A DNA stretch of 64,000 nucleotides from positions 1-64,000 of the forward strand of contig NZ_WSZK01000036.1 of NCBI RefSeq assembly GCF_009791395.1, written 5' to 3'. The translations under genes were made by a program, and so were the position numbers. Numbering within the stretch: position 1 is the stretch's first letter; each line of letters begins with the position of its first letter. Below, piece by piece: positions 3,580-56,235 of this stretch. The notes below the pieces were generated by a model. The model did no database searches. It saw nothing but the letters and a program-made list of their open reading frames with translations, and had not been told where the DNA came from. This DNA comes from Halomarina oriensis. GTDB lineage: Archaea; Halobacteriota; Halobacteria; Halobacteriales; Haloarculaceae.

Positions 3580-3736
3580 CCCACCGAATCGTTACCTCTG
3601 CCTCCTGCCCACAGTTCGGGCATACCCATCCGCCGAGCGACCCACGTTCCATTACCTGCCCGCTGACTTTGCACGAACAGATGAGGTTGTCAACAGACAC
3701 CTCGTGCGAAACCCCCTGCGAGGATTCCCCGCTCAT
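3560..3736 (-). CDS. Small zinc-ribbon protein
   Basis: 58 residues from an ATG that overlaps the upstream stop as ATGA. Two cysteine pairs (CSC near residue 20 and CPNC near residue 39) make a treble-clef or ribbon-type zinc site. A longer start at 3766 would run into the upstream gene and is less likely. Role unknown; such ribbons often bind nucleic acid or a partner protein. Confidence 0.7.
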   Translation of the reverse strand: MSGESSQGVSHEVSVDNLICSCKVSGQVMERGSLGGWVCPNCGQEAEVTIRWGDALDR

Positions 3737-4116
3737 TGCCACTCCCCGTGCATGATTCGGTTCCACGCGCTCTGGATGTCCTGCCGTAGTTCGTCCTCTT
3801 CGGAGTGAGTCCCATAGCCGCAGTCACGGCACTCGATATGGTCCGAGAAGCCCCAGTCACGAGCGCCACACTCGGGACATTTCGGTTGCTGAACGTCGCT
3901 CCGGCGCGTGAGTTCGTTCCACAGGTCCGCGAGCCGGTCCGATTCCTCGTCGGATATCGACATGGCGACCGATTCCTCGTCGGATATCGACATGGCGACC
4001 GATTCCTCGTCGGATATCGACATGGCGACCGATTCCTCGCGGAGGTCGGCATACTCACGCTGGAGTGCCTCGTCACTCATCTGGTCGACGTCTTGGGACG
4101 CCGTCTCCTGAGCCAT
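3733..4116 (-). CDS. Zinc-ribbon protein with three 10-residue repeats
   Basis: 127 residues. Residues about 28-57 are three exact copies of a ten-residue unit (ESVAMSISDE). A zinc ribbon follows (CPECG...CRDCG, about 80-101). The start is supported by a promoter box 21 bases upstream, which implies a leaderless mRNA. The exact DNA identity of the repeats points to recent duplication. The repeat looks like an acidic helical spacer; its function is unknown. Confidence 0.8.
   Translation of the reverse strand: MAQETASQDVDQMSDEALQREYADLREESVAMSISDEESVAMSISDEESVAMSISDEESDRLADLWNELTRRSDVQQPKCPECGARDWGFSDHIECRDCGYGTHSEEDELRQDIQSAWNRIMHGEWQ
3941..4030 (+). repeat. Three exact 30-base tandem repeats
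   Basis: Three identical 30-base units (3941-3970, 3971-4000, 4001-4030), with nine more bases of a fourth copy. The unit length keeps the reading frame of the gene around it, so copy number can change without breaking the protein. Confidence 0.95.
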
Positions 4117-29862: not shown

Positions 29863-30237
29863 TTACTCAGCGAACACCGACTGCATGACAGCGTGGTTGT
29901 CATGCAGCACTTCCAGCACCTCCTGGTCGGTCGCTATCGTATGTATCGGAGAGTCCAACAACCCCTCAGCAGACTCGCCGTGTTTCCACTGCAAGAACGC
30001 ATCCAGTTTCGCATATCGGTGGACATCGATGGCCACACCTTCGAGAGAGCCATGGTCCTTCAGATGAGTGTCGACGGCCGCCAGTATCAGCCCCCGTATG
30101 CGATATGCTTCTTGAGGCGTCGTCTCGATTGTGAATTCTCGATGTGTGACGGGATCCGCCGGGGAGCCATCCGAAGACGGCGCTAACGACGGCTTCTCAA
30201 CCACCGGATAGGCCACGCGGATGGGGGTGTCAGTCAT
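29863..30237 (-). CDS. Hypothetical protein
   Basis: 124 residues. The C-terminal part (EFTIETTPQEAYRIRGLILA, HRYAKLDAFLQWKHGESAE) looks alpha/beta. It overlaps the 3' end of the methyltransferase gene by 8 bases. Confidence 0.65.
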   Translation of the reverse strand: MTDTPIRVAYPVVEKPSLAPSSDGSPADPVTHREFTIETTPQEAYRIRGLILAAVDTHLKDHGSLEGVAIDVHRYAKLDAFLQWKHGESAEGLLDSPIHTIATDQEVLEVLHDNHAVMQSVFAE

Positions 30238-31861
30238 CGGCTTCCACCCCGCTGTTGGGCGTGAACGTCGACAGCGACGGTTCGTCGCCCGTCAACAGCT
30301 TCGTGATGAGCGCTTTCGCTAAGTTAACCGGGACGGCGTTCCCGATCTGGCGCGTCGTCTCGGTCTTGTTCCCGGCGAACTCGTACCCCGCCGGAAACCC
30401 CATCGCTGCCGCCAGTTCCGGCGGCTGAAGCATCCGGTAGTGGATGTCGAGTCCCCATGGCCAACACTCGGGGACGACCAGTGCGAAGCGATCTTTCGTC
30501 GTCACGGTCGGTAGCGGTTCGTCGACCGAACAGGCATCCGAGTTGCCGTAGTACTGGACGAGATACGGCTGAGCGACGTACGGGTCAGAGCCGGTGGCGG
30601 TGACCGTCGGGAGCGGTGCGTCGATGTCGTGGGTGCGTGGTCGTTGTCCCTCGCGCTCACTGAAGTACGGCACGAGATACGGCCGCACAACGTGCCCGTC
30701 GTGGTTCTGTGCCGTAATCGTGTGGACGGGCCGCTCGGCAGGATTGTACGCCGGATTCGAGTGCAGACCACGCTGGTAGCCGTTGCGCGGCAAGATGAAC
30801 GGATTGGGGTTCAACACCGAGATAGCACCGCGAGTTGCCACCGTCGGCAGCGGCTGGTCGGTGACGGCCCGTGGCGTCGCGTTCGACTGCTGACCGAGGA
30901 CGTAGGGCGTGGCGAGCGCGAACTTGTTCCCGCCCGCAGTGACGGTGTCGAGTGGGTCGTGGACCGACAGGGCCGTCGACGTGCCGTAGTATTTGACGAG
31001 AAACGGCTCGCCACGCTCGACGTGGGCGTCGTCCAGGTCGGTCACGTCGACCGCTGTCTGTTGGAGTCGCTCGACGTCGGCTTTTTCGAGGTCGGCCACT
31101 GCGTCCGCGAACGGTTCGAGGTCCTCACTGGCGTAGCGGCGCAGTCCTTCGGCGATGCGCTGCATCGTGTTGTTGACGAGCGGGCGGTCACGCTGCCAGA
31201 TGGACTCGCCAGTGTCCGACCAGTCGATAATCTCGGCGGCCGAGCGCCACTCCTGTAAGTCGTCGCCGCTCTTGCTGTGGGTCGGCTCGGGAAACGCCGC
31301 CCGGTTGTTCCGACGGCCGACGACGAACAACCGCCGCCGAGAGGTGGCATCGCCGTAATCCGCAGCGTTCAGAACCCGCCAGTCTACCGAGTAGCCCAGC
31401 GACGCAAAGAGGTCCACCCACCGCTCGAAGATAGAGCCATCACGCGAGGGCGTCCCGTCTTCGTCGACCGGCCCCCACTTGCGGAACTCGGGGACGTTCT
31501 CGACGAGGACGTGTTCGGGGCGCAGCAACTCGACCCAGTGCAGCAGGTGCATCGGCGAGGTCCGCATCTGCTCGTTGACCGGGGCGCTCCCGCGGGCGTT
31601 ACTGAAGTGCGTACACTGGAACCCACCGGCGACGATGTCGATGCCGGGGTCGAAGACCTCCGGCGGATGCAGTTCTTCGACTTTCGCGTTGTAGTGGCGC
31701 GCCCACGGGTGGTTCGCCTTGTGTGACTCGACGGCGATGGCGTCGTGGTTGACGGCCGCGAGGTCGACATCACGGTCGAGCGACTCGGCGGCGAGTGCGA
31801 GGCCCGCCGAGAGGCCACCCGCCCCACAGAAGAGGTCGACCGCCTGGATGGAATCACTCAC
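30230..31861 (-). CDS. DNA C5-cytosine methyltransferase
   Basis: 543 residues from a GTG at 31861 that overlaps the leader peptide's stop. Motif I is DLFCGAGGLSAGL. The catalytic motif IV is the variant GGFQCTHFS (Cys 83), in place of the usual PPCQ. Motif VI is ENV (121-123), and SRRRLFVVG is motif VIII. Motif X is near the end (TRQIGNAVPVNLA). Between them lie several repeats around DEPLPTVTTKDRF, the probable target-recognition region, of the type seen in phage enzymes. It would methylate viral DNA to avoid host restriction. Confidence 0.9.
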   Translation of the reverse strand: MSDSIQAVDLFCGAGGLSAGLALAAESLDRDVDLAAVNHDAIAVESHKANHPWARHYNAKVEELHPPEVFDPGIDIVAGGFQCTHFSNARGSAPVNEQMRTSPMHLLHWVELLRPEHVLVENVPEFRKWGPVDEDGTPSRDGSIFERWVDLFASLGYSVDWRVLNAADYGDATSRRRLFVVGRRNNRAAFPEPTHSKSGDDLQEWRSAAEIIDWSDTGESIWQRDRPLVNNTMQRIAEGLRRYASEDLEPFADAVADLEKADVERLQQTAVDVTDLDDAHVERGEPFLVKYYGTSTALSVHDPLDTVTAGGNKFALATPYVLGQQSNATPRAVTDQPLPTVATRGAISVLNPNPFILPRNGYQRGLHSNPAYNPAERPVHTITAQNHDGHVVRPYLVPYFSEREGQRPRTHDIDAPLPTVTATGSDPYVAQPYLVQYYGNSDACSVDEPLPTVTTKDRFALVVPECWPWGLDIHYRMLQPPELAAAMGFPAGYEFAGNKTETTRQIGNAVPVNLAKALITKLLTGDEPSLSTFTPNSGVEADD

Positions 31862-52802: not shown

Positions 52803-52815
52803 TATGCATAAATAC
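52803..52815 (+). promoter_or_regulatory. TATA-type promoter before the DUF7504-CHAT pair
   Basis: ATGCATAAATACT in a 100-base gap, about 38 bases before the ATG at 52848. This is a host-like TATA box, not the viral P-box, so the pair can be expressed without viral factors. Confidence 0.5.
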
Positions 52816-52847
52816 TCGCCACCTGTCTACCTGCAACAAGGTTTTCC

Positions 52848-53549
52848 ATGACCGACTCGGTGCCGAATTCGGCCCCCGCTGACGACGTTGCCCATCCCGT
52901 CGAGGAAGCGTTGCAGTCACTCCACGCGAGCGGTGGCCGCATCCTGGTGAGCGGGGCCGTCGGTGAGGACGTGTTGTGTGGACTCGCCCGCAAGCTGTTC
53001 GGCGATGGCCCTCGGCCGCGCGTGTTGGCGACGGCCGACCTGGACGCGGCGGCGGTCGACGCCTGTCTCCCCTCGTCGGTCCCGGACGACCAGACAGCCA
53101 TCGTTCGCCACGGCGATGCGCGGGGGTCGGCGGCGATGCACTGTGACGGGGGTGTCGAGCGCCCGCCACCTCCATCGTGGCTGCGGGCGTTCCGAACCGA
53201 TATCTACGACGGGCTGGCGGGCGTCCGTGACGGGGTTGACCCGTCGCCAAGCGAGATACGGGTGGGCGTCCTGACGCTGCGACCGTTACTCGACGACAAC
53301 AGCCCGGACGAGGTGGCGAGTTTCTGCCGCCTGATTGGGTCGGAGGTGACGCTGTCTCGTGGTGTCGCCTTCTTCGGCTCGGGGCTACCGACGCCGACGG
53401 CGACGTTGGAGCCGATTCGAGACGTCGTCGATGCCGAAGTGCGCTTGCGCTGGGAGCCGGGGCTTGACACGCCCGAACAGCGCTGGGTGCTTCAAGACGG
53501 TACTACCAAGTCACAGTGGCACCCACTTGACATCACGACAGATGGTTGA
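52848..53549 (+). CDS. DUF7504-like protein, partner of CHAT protease
   Basis: 233 residues. The start VEEALQSLHASGGRILVSGA, then CGLARKLFGDGPRPRVLATA, is the strand-helix pattern of haloarchaeal DUF7504 proteins (RecA-like fold without a clear Walker A). The family is of unknown function and is found beside regulators. Its stop overlaps a possible TTG start of the CHAT gene, so the two are one operon. A sensor or regulator of the protease is a reasonable guess. Confidence 0.6.
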   Translation: MTDSVPNSAPADDVAHPVEEALQSLHASGGRILVSGAVGEDVLCGLARKLFGDGPRPRVLATADLDAAAVDACLPSSVPDDQTAIVRHGDARGSAAMHCDGGVERPPPPSWLRAFRTDIYDGLAGVRDGVDPSPSEIRVGVLTLRPLLDDNSPDEVASFCRLIGSEVTLSRGVAFFGSGLPTPTATLEPIRDVVDAEVRLRWEPGLDTPEQRWVLQDGTTKSQWHPLDITTDG

Positions 53550-53569
53550 CGCCCCCTTCAGGTATCGAA

Positions 53570-55657
53570 ATGCGCCCCGCTGACCGGCCGCGGGAACCAA
53601 CTGCGGAGTTGGTGTGTCCCGGCGCTCGCTCGGAGCTACGGCTTCACGACGTCGCCGAGGGTGTGCGGGCGCTGCTCGGAGCGGATGGCGCGACGTCGTG
53701 TATCGAACACACGACGGCGTGGTGTCCCTACCCACTCGATTCGGGCTGGCGCGTCGATACCGGGCGGCTCTCGGTTCCCAAACCCGTCGAGGTGGTCATC
53801 CGGACGGGGGCGGGCGACCCGCTCACGCAGGTGACTCACCGCGAGCGCTTCGACGCCGAGGCAGGCGAGTACGTCCTGCAGGTCCAATCGCTGGGCATCG
53901 TCTGTTATCTCCACGTTACAGGCACGCTCACGACCGTTTTCGAGGATGGGGCGCGCATCATCCACACCTCTGCAGACCATATCGACATCGGCCTTCGCTC
54001 GCTGCACGAACGGCCCCACGCCACCGTCGAGACGAGTGCTCACCCACGCGACCTGATGCGGGCGCTCTCGTGTTTCGGGTCGGCGCTCAAAACCACCTCA
54101 CCGGAGCGCTCGTGGCCCACGCTCCGTGGCTTTCCACCCGCACTCGACGTCGTCGACGCCGAGCGGCATTTCAACGCTCCCGAGGGGCTCGAACGGACCA
54201 GCCGGCCGATCCACCTCACGGTGCCCGAAGAGCGGCGGTACGTCCTGCCGGTCGCCTCACTCGCCTACTATCTCGACGCGCCCGTGACGCCCGGCGACCC
54301 GGCACTGCACGTCGGGGCAGAGTCCATCCCGATTCGCGGCCCGGTTGACGAGACGGTCGTCGACGACGTCGCCCACGCACGCTTCGAGTCGGGCTGCCGT
54401 CGCCTGCTCGAACAGGTGTTCACGCTGGACTGTCACGTCCGGAGTGCGGGGCAGTTCCCGGCCCTGCTCGCCGGTCACGACGCGGTCGCCGACCTCCTCT
54501 CGCCCGACCCGGAGACGCTGTATGCCGCCGACCGCGTCCAGCGCCTCGATGCGTATCTGGGCGTCGACTACGAGGCGCTTGCCGACACGGGGGCGATACC
54601 ACAGTGGAAACTCACGGCCGACCTCGCCCCGCACGCCGAGCACGTTCCATACCTCCCGTTTGGGGTGTACGACCTCGGTCACGTCCGGACGGTCGAGTTA
54701 CCGGCCGACGGCGAAGCGCGGCCGAGTCACTCGGCGAGCGGCCACGTCCCGATTGTGACGCCACCGCCCGTGGAGAGCATCGAACACGCGTGGTTGGGGC
54801 CGGGCATCCCGCTGGGGGCGTCGACGCCGACGCCAGCAGCCTGTCGTCGGCAACTCGACCCCGTGGGTGATGGCCCGGTCGAGATTGCGGTTATCGTCAA
54901 CGACGAGTCGATGGCCGCCGAGCGGTCGGTGGGCGACATCTACGAGGTGCGAGACCTCCTGGCGATGGACGTCACCGTCCACGAGGGGCTGACCGTCGCG
55001 GAGACGCGAGCGGTGCTCGAAGCCGACCGGAGTCTCGTGCATTTCGTCGGGCACGTCACCGACGAGGGGCTGCAGTGTCGTGATGGGTCGTTGGATGCAC
55101 GGACGCTCGACACGCTCGGTGCGCGGGCGTTCATCCTGAACGCCTGTCGGTCCTATCAACAGGGCCGGGCGCTCCTCGACGCCGGGGCCGTCGGCGGGCT
55201 GGTCACGCTGGCGTCGGTGGCGAACGACTCGGCGACGCGAATCGGCATTCAGGCCGCCCGACTGTTGACGGCTGGGTTCTCCCTGGCCGGTGCGTTAGCG
55301 GTGTTGCGCGAGACCCTGGCGACGGCGACGCAGTACTCGATTGTCGGAGACGGGAACGCGACGATTGCGACGACCGAGGGCGCAACACCACACAGCATCA
55401 CGCTCACTCGCTCTGGTGATGCGTTCGACATGACGTTCTACGGATACCCGACACGAAAGTGGCCGTTAGGAACGACTCATTCACCGAATATCGGGACGAG
55501 CCCACCACGCTGTCTCAATGCAGGCCGTATCACGTCGATAACGGTCACTGCCGAGGAACTCACCGAATACTTCGGGCTGTCGGGGAACATTCCGGTCCGG
55601 TACAATGGTCAGTTAGAGTGGGCACATGACCTCGGCACCCAGCTTTCGGAGCGGTAA
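53570..55657 (+). CDS. CHAT-domain (caspase-like) protease
   Basis: 695 residues from the ATG at 53570 (a TTG at 53546 overlapping the upstream stop is possible). The C-terminal domain has the CHAT dyad: His 495 in VHFVGHVTDEG and Cys 526 in FILNACRSYQQG, followed by AGAVGGLVTLASVAND. The first 440 residues have no known domain and may be the sensing part. CHAT proteases cut specific proteins and act in cell-death and defence systems. A virus-carried copy with its own TATA box may exclude other viruses. The last 70 residues contain AEELTEYFGLSGNI, a small extra domain. Confidence 0.82.
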   Translation: MRPADRPREPTAELVCPGARSELRLHDVAEGVRALLGADGATSCIEHTTAWCPYPLDSGWRVDTGRLSVPKPVEVVIRTGAGDPLTQVTHRERFDAEAGEYVLQVQSLGIVCYLHVTGTLTTVFEDGARIIHTSADHIDIGLRSLHERPHATVETSAHPRDLMRALSCFGSALKTTSPERSWPTLRGFPPALDVVDAERHFNAPEGLERTSRPIHLTVPEERRYVLPVASLAYYLDAPVTPGDPALHVGAESIPIRGPVDETVVDDVAHARFESGCRRLLEQVFTLDCHVRSAGQFPALLAGHDAVADLLSPDPETLYAADRVQRLDAYLGVDYEALADTGAIPQWKLTADLAPHAEHVPYLPFGVYDLGHVRTVELPADGEARPSHSASGHVPIVTPPPVESIEHAWLGPGIPLGASTPTPAACRRQLDPVGDGPVEIAVIVNDESMAAERSVGDIYEVRDLLAMDVTVHEGLTVAETRAVLEADRSLVHFVGHVTDEGLQCRDGSLDARTLDTLGARAFILNACRSYQQGRALLDAGAVGGLVTLASVANDSATRIGIQAARLLTAGFSLAGALAVLRETLATATQYSIVGDGNATIATTEGATPHSITLTRSGDAFDMTFYGYPTRKWPLGTTHSPNIGTSPPRCLNAGRITSITVTAEELTEYFGLSGNIPVRYNGQLEWAHDLGTQLSER

Positions 55658-55783
55658 CTACGGGCCGACGTTCCCGGTCGCACCGCCGAAACTTGGCTTG
55701 CAGTCCGAAAGCGCTGCGAGGAACAGCAGGCCGATGTACTTTGGTTCCTCACGCAGCATCGTCGAGAGTAGGCTTTCTGCCAT
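55658..55783 (-). CDS. Small membrane peptide, 41 aa
   Basis: MAESLLSTMLREEPKYIGLL, then FLAALSDCKPSF. One hydrophobic segment. AAAATTTTT lies about 27 bases upstream of the ATG at 55783, which suits a leaderless start. It converges directly on the end of the CHAT gene (adjacent stops), so a link to that gene is possible. Confidence 0.4.
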   Translation of the reverse strand: MAESLLSTMLREEPKYIGLLFLAALSDCKPSFGGATGNVGP

Positions 55784-55864
55784 ACATACACCACGTCGCG
55801 CGTTCTCGAAAAATTTTGCTAAAGAAGTGCTGTAAGAATTGACAGAAAGAAACCAGGGTGGTGG

Positions 55865-56203
55865 TTACTTCGCCATGAACTCTCGGATGGCGTGGAGTTC
55901 GCGTTCTGCAGCGGTTCGGCCGGCGTGGAGTGCGAGGACGTCGAGGCGCTGGATCGTCTCGTCGACTTTGTGTGAGGTGAGTGAGTGGCGACGTTCGGAG
56001 GCAACACGCTCACAGTCGACGTGGCCCAACTCCGCCAACAGGGATAGCTGCTGTGAGACGGTCCGCGCCGAGTAGCCAGTCTGACTGGCGAGTTCGCTCA
56101 CCGAGAGGCCGTCGCTGTCGGTCGTCCCCAGAAGTGCCTGAACGACCGCTGCCCGCGACTCCGGTGTGCAAAGCTGCAGCATCCCGCCCGCTTCGCTGAC
56201 CAT
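55865..56203 (-). CDS. Winged-helix regulator (ArsR-like)
   Basis: 112 residues from the ATG at 56203. LCTPESRAAVVQALLGTTDS, recognition part SVSELASQTGYSARTVSQQL, wing CERVASERRHSL, then a dimer helix (ERELHAIREFMAK). TTTAACATG-type TATA about 27 bases upstream, with a perfect palindrome next to it. Likely controls itself and perhaps the CHAT region. Confidence 0.75.
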   Translation of the reverse strand: MVSEAGGMLQLCTPESRAAVVQALLGTTDSDGLSVSELASQTGYSARTVSQQLSLLAELGHVDCERVASERRHSLTSHKVDETIQRLDVLALHAGRTAAERELHAIREFMAK

Positions 56204-56235
56204 GAGAGAGCCACACACGCAACCATGTTAAAGGA

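Follow-up and report, generated by a model that had tools for sequence, protein, structure and literature searches.

A divergent CHAT-type protease gene and its convergent DUF7503 partner on a tailed virus of haloarchaea

The usual outcome of CHAT protease activity is growth arrest or death. Among the systems to which the locus considered here can be compared is Craspase, of type III-E CRISPR, in which Csx30 is encoded beside the TPR-CHAT protease (Csx29) as its substrate, CHAT substrates being commonly neighbours of the protease (PMC9729208). The haloarchaeal unit likewise has a dedicated partner gene beside CHAT, but it lacks CRISPR components and its partner is a convergently encoded peptide of about 41-49 amino acids, whereas that of Craspase is larger and lies in a CRISPR locus. 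The arrangement also recalls the association of CHAT with bacterial gasdermin, where the protease adjoins a candidate membrane-acting partner too; here, however, the partner is a single-helix micropeptide rather than a gasdermin, and it may or may not be activated by cleavage. No Pfam match to a gasdermin was found in either gene flanking the viral CHAT gene, and the recurrent partners of its relatives are DUF7503 and DUF7504. A further point of comparison is SAVED-CHAT of type III CRISPR (8tl0), the protease domain of which has a fold like that of the viral protein (E=4e-6); the latter differs by having no SAVED domain and an N-terminal part that does not match that of SAVED-CHAT.

The window, i.e. 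the whole stretch of DNA analysed, corresponds to positions 1-64,000 of a 98-kb contig. It encodes a terminase, a portal, a major capsid protein, another PHROG 'head protein', ParA and a replication protein. The contig around the CHAT unit is therefore that of a tailed haloarchaeal virus, and the presence of the last two genes suggests that this virus is possibly maintained in a plasmid-like manner. The first-pass annotation described a unit made of a DUF7504-like gene and a CHAT gene; both are present where it placed them, at the right end of the sole long rightward block (49.7-55.7 kb). A second rightward block is found beyond the window, at the end of the contig (~93.9-98.0 kb; L029:11857-16017, + strand). 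It contains a gene for a 223-amino-acid RuvC/TnpB-like protein, with matches to Cas12u3 (E=5e-13) and to Cas12f1-like_TNB (E=9e-10), together with a weak Csm3-like match, an unknown protein of 259 amino acids and a Cmr3-like RAMP match; the block could be a CRISPR-like module carried by the virus and equipped with a mini-RuvC protein. The virus also carries two DNA methyltransferase genes (30230-31861 of the window and L028:10564-11394, both on the - strand), with no obvious restriction partner, and a gene (3733-4116, - strand) whose short product repeats the motif SDEESVAMSI in tandem.

The CHAT gene (53570-55657, + strand) encodes a protein of 695 amino acids if translation begins at the ATG in 53570, which is the likely start; the frame is also open from a TTG in 53546. 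Comparison of the protein with PF12770 (CHAT) gives an E-value of 0.016 and 15.1 bits, under the Pfam curated cut-off of 24, and the relatives behave similarly, with weak matches in 4 out of 12 only (best E=4.9e-4). A sequence search of the PDB with a CHAT profile returned no match, and a fold search of BFVD none with E <1e-3. The AlphaFold model of the viral protein (mean pLDDT 90.8) nevertheless matches, with Foldseek against the PDB, separase (E=7.7e-7), SAVED-CHAT (4.2e-6), gingipain (3.6e-5) and Csx29 (3.8e-3). The two residues initially proposed as catalytic, His495 and Cys526 (counted from the ATG in 53570), proved invariant in all 58 aligned relatives. Because of this invariance and of the matches of the model to the four proteases, we consider that the viral protein is a divergent separase-like cysteine protease of CHAT type and that it is probably active. 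Like the clan CD peptidases (PF12770, separase, gingipain), it has a His-Cys dyad, and its C-terminal protease domain is folded as theirs; it departs from them by its score below the Pfam threshold, by a C-terminal beta domain, and by an N-terminal region of about 400 residues without TPR or SAVED match.

DUF7504 had been singled out as the partner of CHAT. It does recur beside CHAT, directly upstream in 47 out of 97 CHAT genes, but this is only about half of them, and the fixed partner is another gene, DUF7503, which had been mentioned merely as a follower. A small opposite-strand gene of this family is found directly behind the CHAT stop codon in 84 of the same 97 cases. A search of 79 whole haloarchaeal genomes, made independently for CHAT and for DUF7503, gave 86 DUF7503 genes, every one of them behind the 3′ end of a CHAT gene and 85 of them convergent with it. 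Counted per genome, both families were present in 65 cases, CHAT alone in 4, neither in 10 and DUF7503 alone in none (Fisher p=7e-10), so that the CHAT family is found in 69 of the 79 genomes; a larger draw gave DUF7503 in 250 out of 292 genomes. The two stop codons overlap or are separated by at most 10 nucleotides in 61 of 82 cases. CHAT and DUF7503 distances are correlated (r=0.47, 0/2000 permutations), which in part reflects simple co-inheritance. DUF7504, on the other hand, was found in 79/79 genomes. Since it is upstream of 47 CHAT genes out of 97 and yet belongs to a family present in all the haloarchaea sampled, it was rejected as the defining partner: the obligate partner of CHAT is the convergent DUF7503 gene, and DUF7504 is optional. 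The convergent layout implies separate control of CHAT and DUF7503, each from its own promoter. The pairing belongs to one CHAT group, which includes the viral copy, because DUF7503 lies next to 78 of the 81 CHAT genes with the higher profile scores in the 79 genomes, versus 11 of the 66 with lower scores. The same genomes thus harbour a second, lower-scoring CHAT group mostly devoid of DUF7503.

In the virus, the DUF7503-like micropeptide (41 amino acids, MAESLLSTMLREEPKYIGLLFLAALSDCKPSFGGATGNVGP) is encoded in 55658-55783 (- strand), tail-to-tail with CHAT, the two stop codons abutting. PF24335 (DUF7503) matches it with E=0.012 and 15.6 bits, under the cut-off of 27; with a DUF7503 profile built without the viral copy, it ranks first of the 713 small ORFs of the window (E=8.3e-6, the next one being at 0.074). 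Its C-terminus is NVGP. From its sequence, we regard it as a divergent member of the family. A TATA-like element, AAAATTTTT, is located about 25-34 nucleotides upstream of its ATG (55808-55816, - strand), and in 81 relatives the AT fraction reaches 0.80-0.96 at -28 to -38 and drops afterwards, which is a TATA profile of leaderless type. The start codon is ATG in 80 out of 82 genes, diversity by codon position is 0.44/0.36/0.59, i.e. highest at third positions, and all synonymous codons are in use for the conserved Gly and Pro residues. The possibility of a chance ORF was ruled out by the non-circular profile test, the promoter profile and the codon-position test, and DUF7503 can be taken as a real gene. 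Further to the right, and on the opposite strand like the micropeptide, as originally described, is a gene for an ArsR/MarR-like winged-helix regulator of 117 amino acids (55865-56218, - strand; HTH_20, E=3.8e-6). No relative of it was found near the other CHAT genes examined, and its inclusion in the unit is consequently unsupported.

DUF7503 proteins are mostly 41-49 amino acids long, 43-46 being typical, and are built on the same plan: an N-terminal segment leading to N/H-P-R/K, usually a hydrophobic stretch, a small-x-small motif, and finally a short tail without charges that has Gly-Pro at its end. The strictest residues are the Pro (82/82), a Phe (79/82), the R/K (80/82) and the C-terminal Gly-Pro (76/82); counted back from the C-terminus, one constant position has A/V/T/G/S (77/82) and the one two residues later A/G (76/82). 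The initial description of a small membrane peptide is appropriate for the family, of which this is typical, but uncertain for the viral copy, because its hydrophobicity is weak: the best 17-residue mean is 1.18, which puts it in the bottom five of the 82. Some host paralogues, one of them in the clade of the viral copy, also have a weak hydrophobic stretch. A membrane role is thus not universal in the family, and membrane insertion seems to matter less than the Pro motif and the Gly-Pro end. In one host paralogue, a Ser replaces the R/K. For this reason we do not claim a basic P1 specificity of CHAT, nor separase-type ExxR cleavage at the E-x-P-R/K of the micropeptide, attractive as this would be; Craspase also shows that the P1 pocket varies between CHATs.

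The assignment of the first gene of the unit (52848-53549, + strand; 233 amino acids) to DUF7504 was correct, PF24336 giving E=1.9e-27 and 97 bits for a cut-off of 27. An AT-rich TATA-like element, CATAAATAC, is indeed present about 32-40 nucleotides upstream of its ATG (52808-52816, + strand) and may serve as its promoter; it is close to the region, around -25 to -37, where an AT-rich peak is seen across 63 DUF7504 genes. The AlphaFold model (pLDDT 86.9) has a KaiC/RecA-like fold, with a Foldseek match to KaiC at E=5e-7. DUF7504 therefore has the core of the KaiC/RadA-like regulators of haloarchaea, but differs from them by the loss of Walker A: GK[ST] is present in only one of 68 relatives and missing in the other 67 and in the viral copy. 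A connection with the HalOD1 signalling proteins is provided by a Natronosalvus plasmid, where the gene preceding CHAT encodes a DUF7504 fused to a HalOD1 output domain. The KaiC core without Walker A and the HalOD1 fusion together suggest a role in signalling or as a scaffold rather than as an ATPase. At eight CHAT genes without DUF7504 (L024:5395-6069, L038, L047, L066, L070, L077, L094 and L102), the upstream position is occupied by another co-directional family, of about 224-245 amino acids, as an alternative partner; the single member scanned has no Pfam match.

As to the origin of the viral copy, the same genome contains five further CHAT copies and six DUF7504 genes in total. The viral CHAT is 45-47% identical to the nearest host copies (47% to a chromosomal one). 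In the tree it forms a group, with 100% support, that also includes two host copies and one from Halomarina rubra; its branch is long (0.99), which could reflect relaxed constraint. Judged by these nearest relatives, the genome is that of a Halomarina-like haloarchaeon. In cellular genome contigs, 363 relatives were confirmed. Conversely, neither IMG/VR nor a set of 50,697 phage records yielded any relative, the IMG/VR scans relying on short back-translated patterns by which distant relatives may be missed. Five genomes contain the capsid genes most closely related to that of the virus; their CHAT genes are located either on different contigs or at a distance of over 100 kb. Since the viral copy nests with Halomarina copies, since no other virus was found with it and since CHAT is distant from the related capsid genes in those five genomes, the unit is host-derived accessory cargo. 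A virus-specific module was rejected, there being hundreds of relatives in genomes and none found in the virus and phage collections searched. So was a very recent capture from this host, the nearest host copies being just 45-47% identical, though in the same clade.

The account that we favour, with modest confidence, is that of a host unit captured by a virus, in which CHAT would act on, or be held by, DUF7503, with DUF7504 as a regulator. Because CHAT substrates tend to be encoded nearby, the DUF7503 peptide is most likely the protease's own substrate or an inhibitory tether. Most members of the family would be inserted in the membrane or exported, as their hydrophobic stretch, small-x-small motif and uncharged tail with Gly-Pro suggest. 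A signal received via DUF7504 or via the N-terminal domain of CHAT, either of which could be the sensor, would activate the protease, which would then cleave or release the peptide and alter the state of the membrane or of the cell, possibly leading to growth arrest or death. The virus would retain the unit as an accessory gene altering or defending its host, plausible targets being other viruses or the pathway's own copies in the host.

What makes an exclusion or cell-death function of the viral unit plausible is the analogy with other CHAT systems. Several of these take part in antiviral death (Craspase, gasdermin-linked CHAT, SAVED-CHAT), the unit is accessory cargo in a virus, and genes for a methylase and a restriction enzyme lie close to one plasmid copy. 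Superinfection exclusion or abortive infection proper, as initially proposed, in which the virus-encoded CHAT would kill or block the host upon entry of a second virus, is however rather unlikely: the unit lies mostly on chromosomes and occurs in nearly all genomes (69/79), with many copies beside housekeeping genes, no other virus was found carrying it, and PADLOC gave no match for DUF7504, CHAT or DUF7503, the HTH being the only part with one. Another possibility is a toxin-antitoxin or addiction pair maintaining the virus as a plasmid, with the peptide as toxin and CHAT as the antitoxin that degrades it, or the reverse. Two closely linked genes, one of them tiny, on a virus with ParA and a replication protein and thus possibly kept as a plasmid, would fit such a scheme, but the genes are convergent and not co-transcribed, their chromosomal positions are stable in related species, and 4 of the 79 genomes retain CHAT without detectable DUF7503; we hold it to be very unlikely.

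One could also imagine that DUF7503 is an exported signal, the last ten or so residues of which, ended by Gly-Pro, would be released and sensed, while CHAT would process the peptide or respond to it. The small residues two positions apart (77/82, then 76/82) do resemble a signal peptidase I site, and they are followed by a variable tail with its Gly-Pro end. Yet such variability of the tail is expected even without selection, the viral copy and some host copies have no good hydrophobic core, and no gene for an exporter or a receptor is linked, so that we consider this option distinctly doubtful.

The open-access literature yielded no paper on the CHAT-DUF7503 pair, no mention of DUF7503 or DUF7504, and none in which CHAT domains appear alongside haloarchaea or Haloferax; Pfam lists DUF7503 as a family of unknown function. 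DUF7503 and DUF7504 are both present in H. volcanii, and the full trio in four other Haloferax species. Haloarchaea have very high caspase-like activity, that of H. volcanii being strong and without a gene assigned to it, and archaea are said to have no clear caspase homologues (PMC3615174). CHAT is a candidate for the haloarchaeal cell-death protease behind this activity. The link is a proposal, and nothing measured here implies that CHAT prefers Asp as the P1 residue. A broader view would be that CHAT and DUF7503 constitute an undescribed, near-universal haloarchaeal pathway of cell death or membrane state, which would be the source of the caspase-like activity of H. volcanii and would have been captured by the virus, the viral peptide, deprived of most of its hydrophobic stretch, being possibly a soluble decoy in the host pathway; taken as a whole, this is unlikely.

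What the analysis does provide is the case of a virus seen carrying the haloarchaeal CHAT-DUF7503 gene set. It also provides a protease of caspase fold, found in 69 of the 79 haloarchaea sampled and tied to a micropeptide family, and hence specific genes to target in Haloferax, a genus that serves as a genetic model, where the source of the haloarchaeal caspase-like activity, a question more than 10 years old, is made testable.
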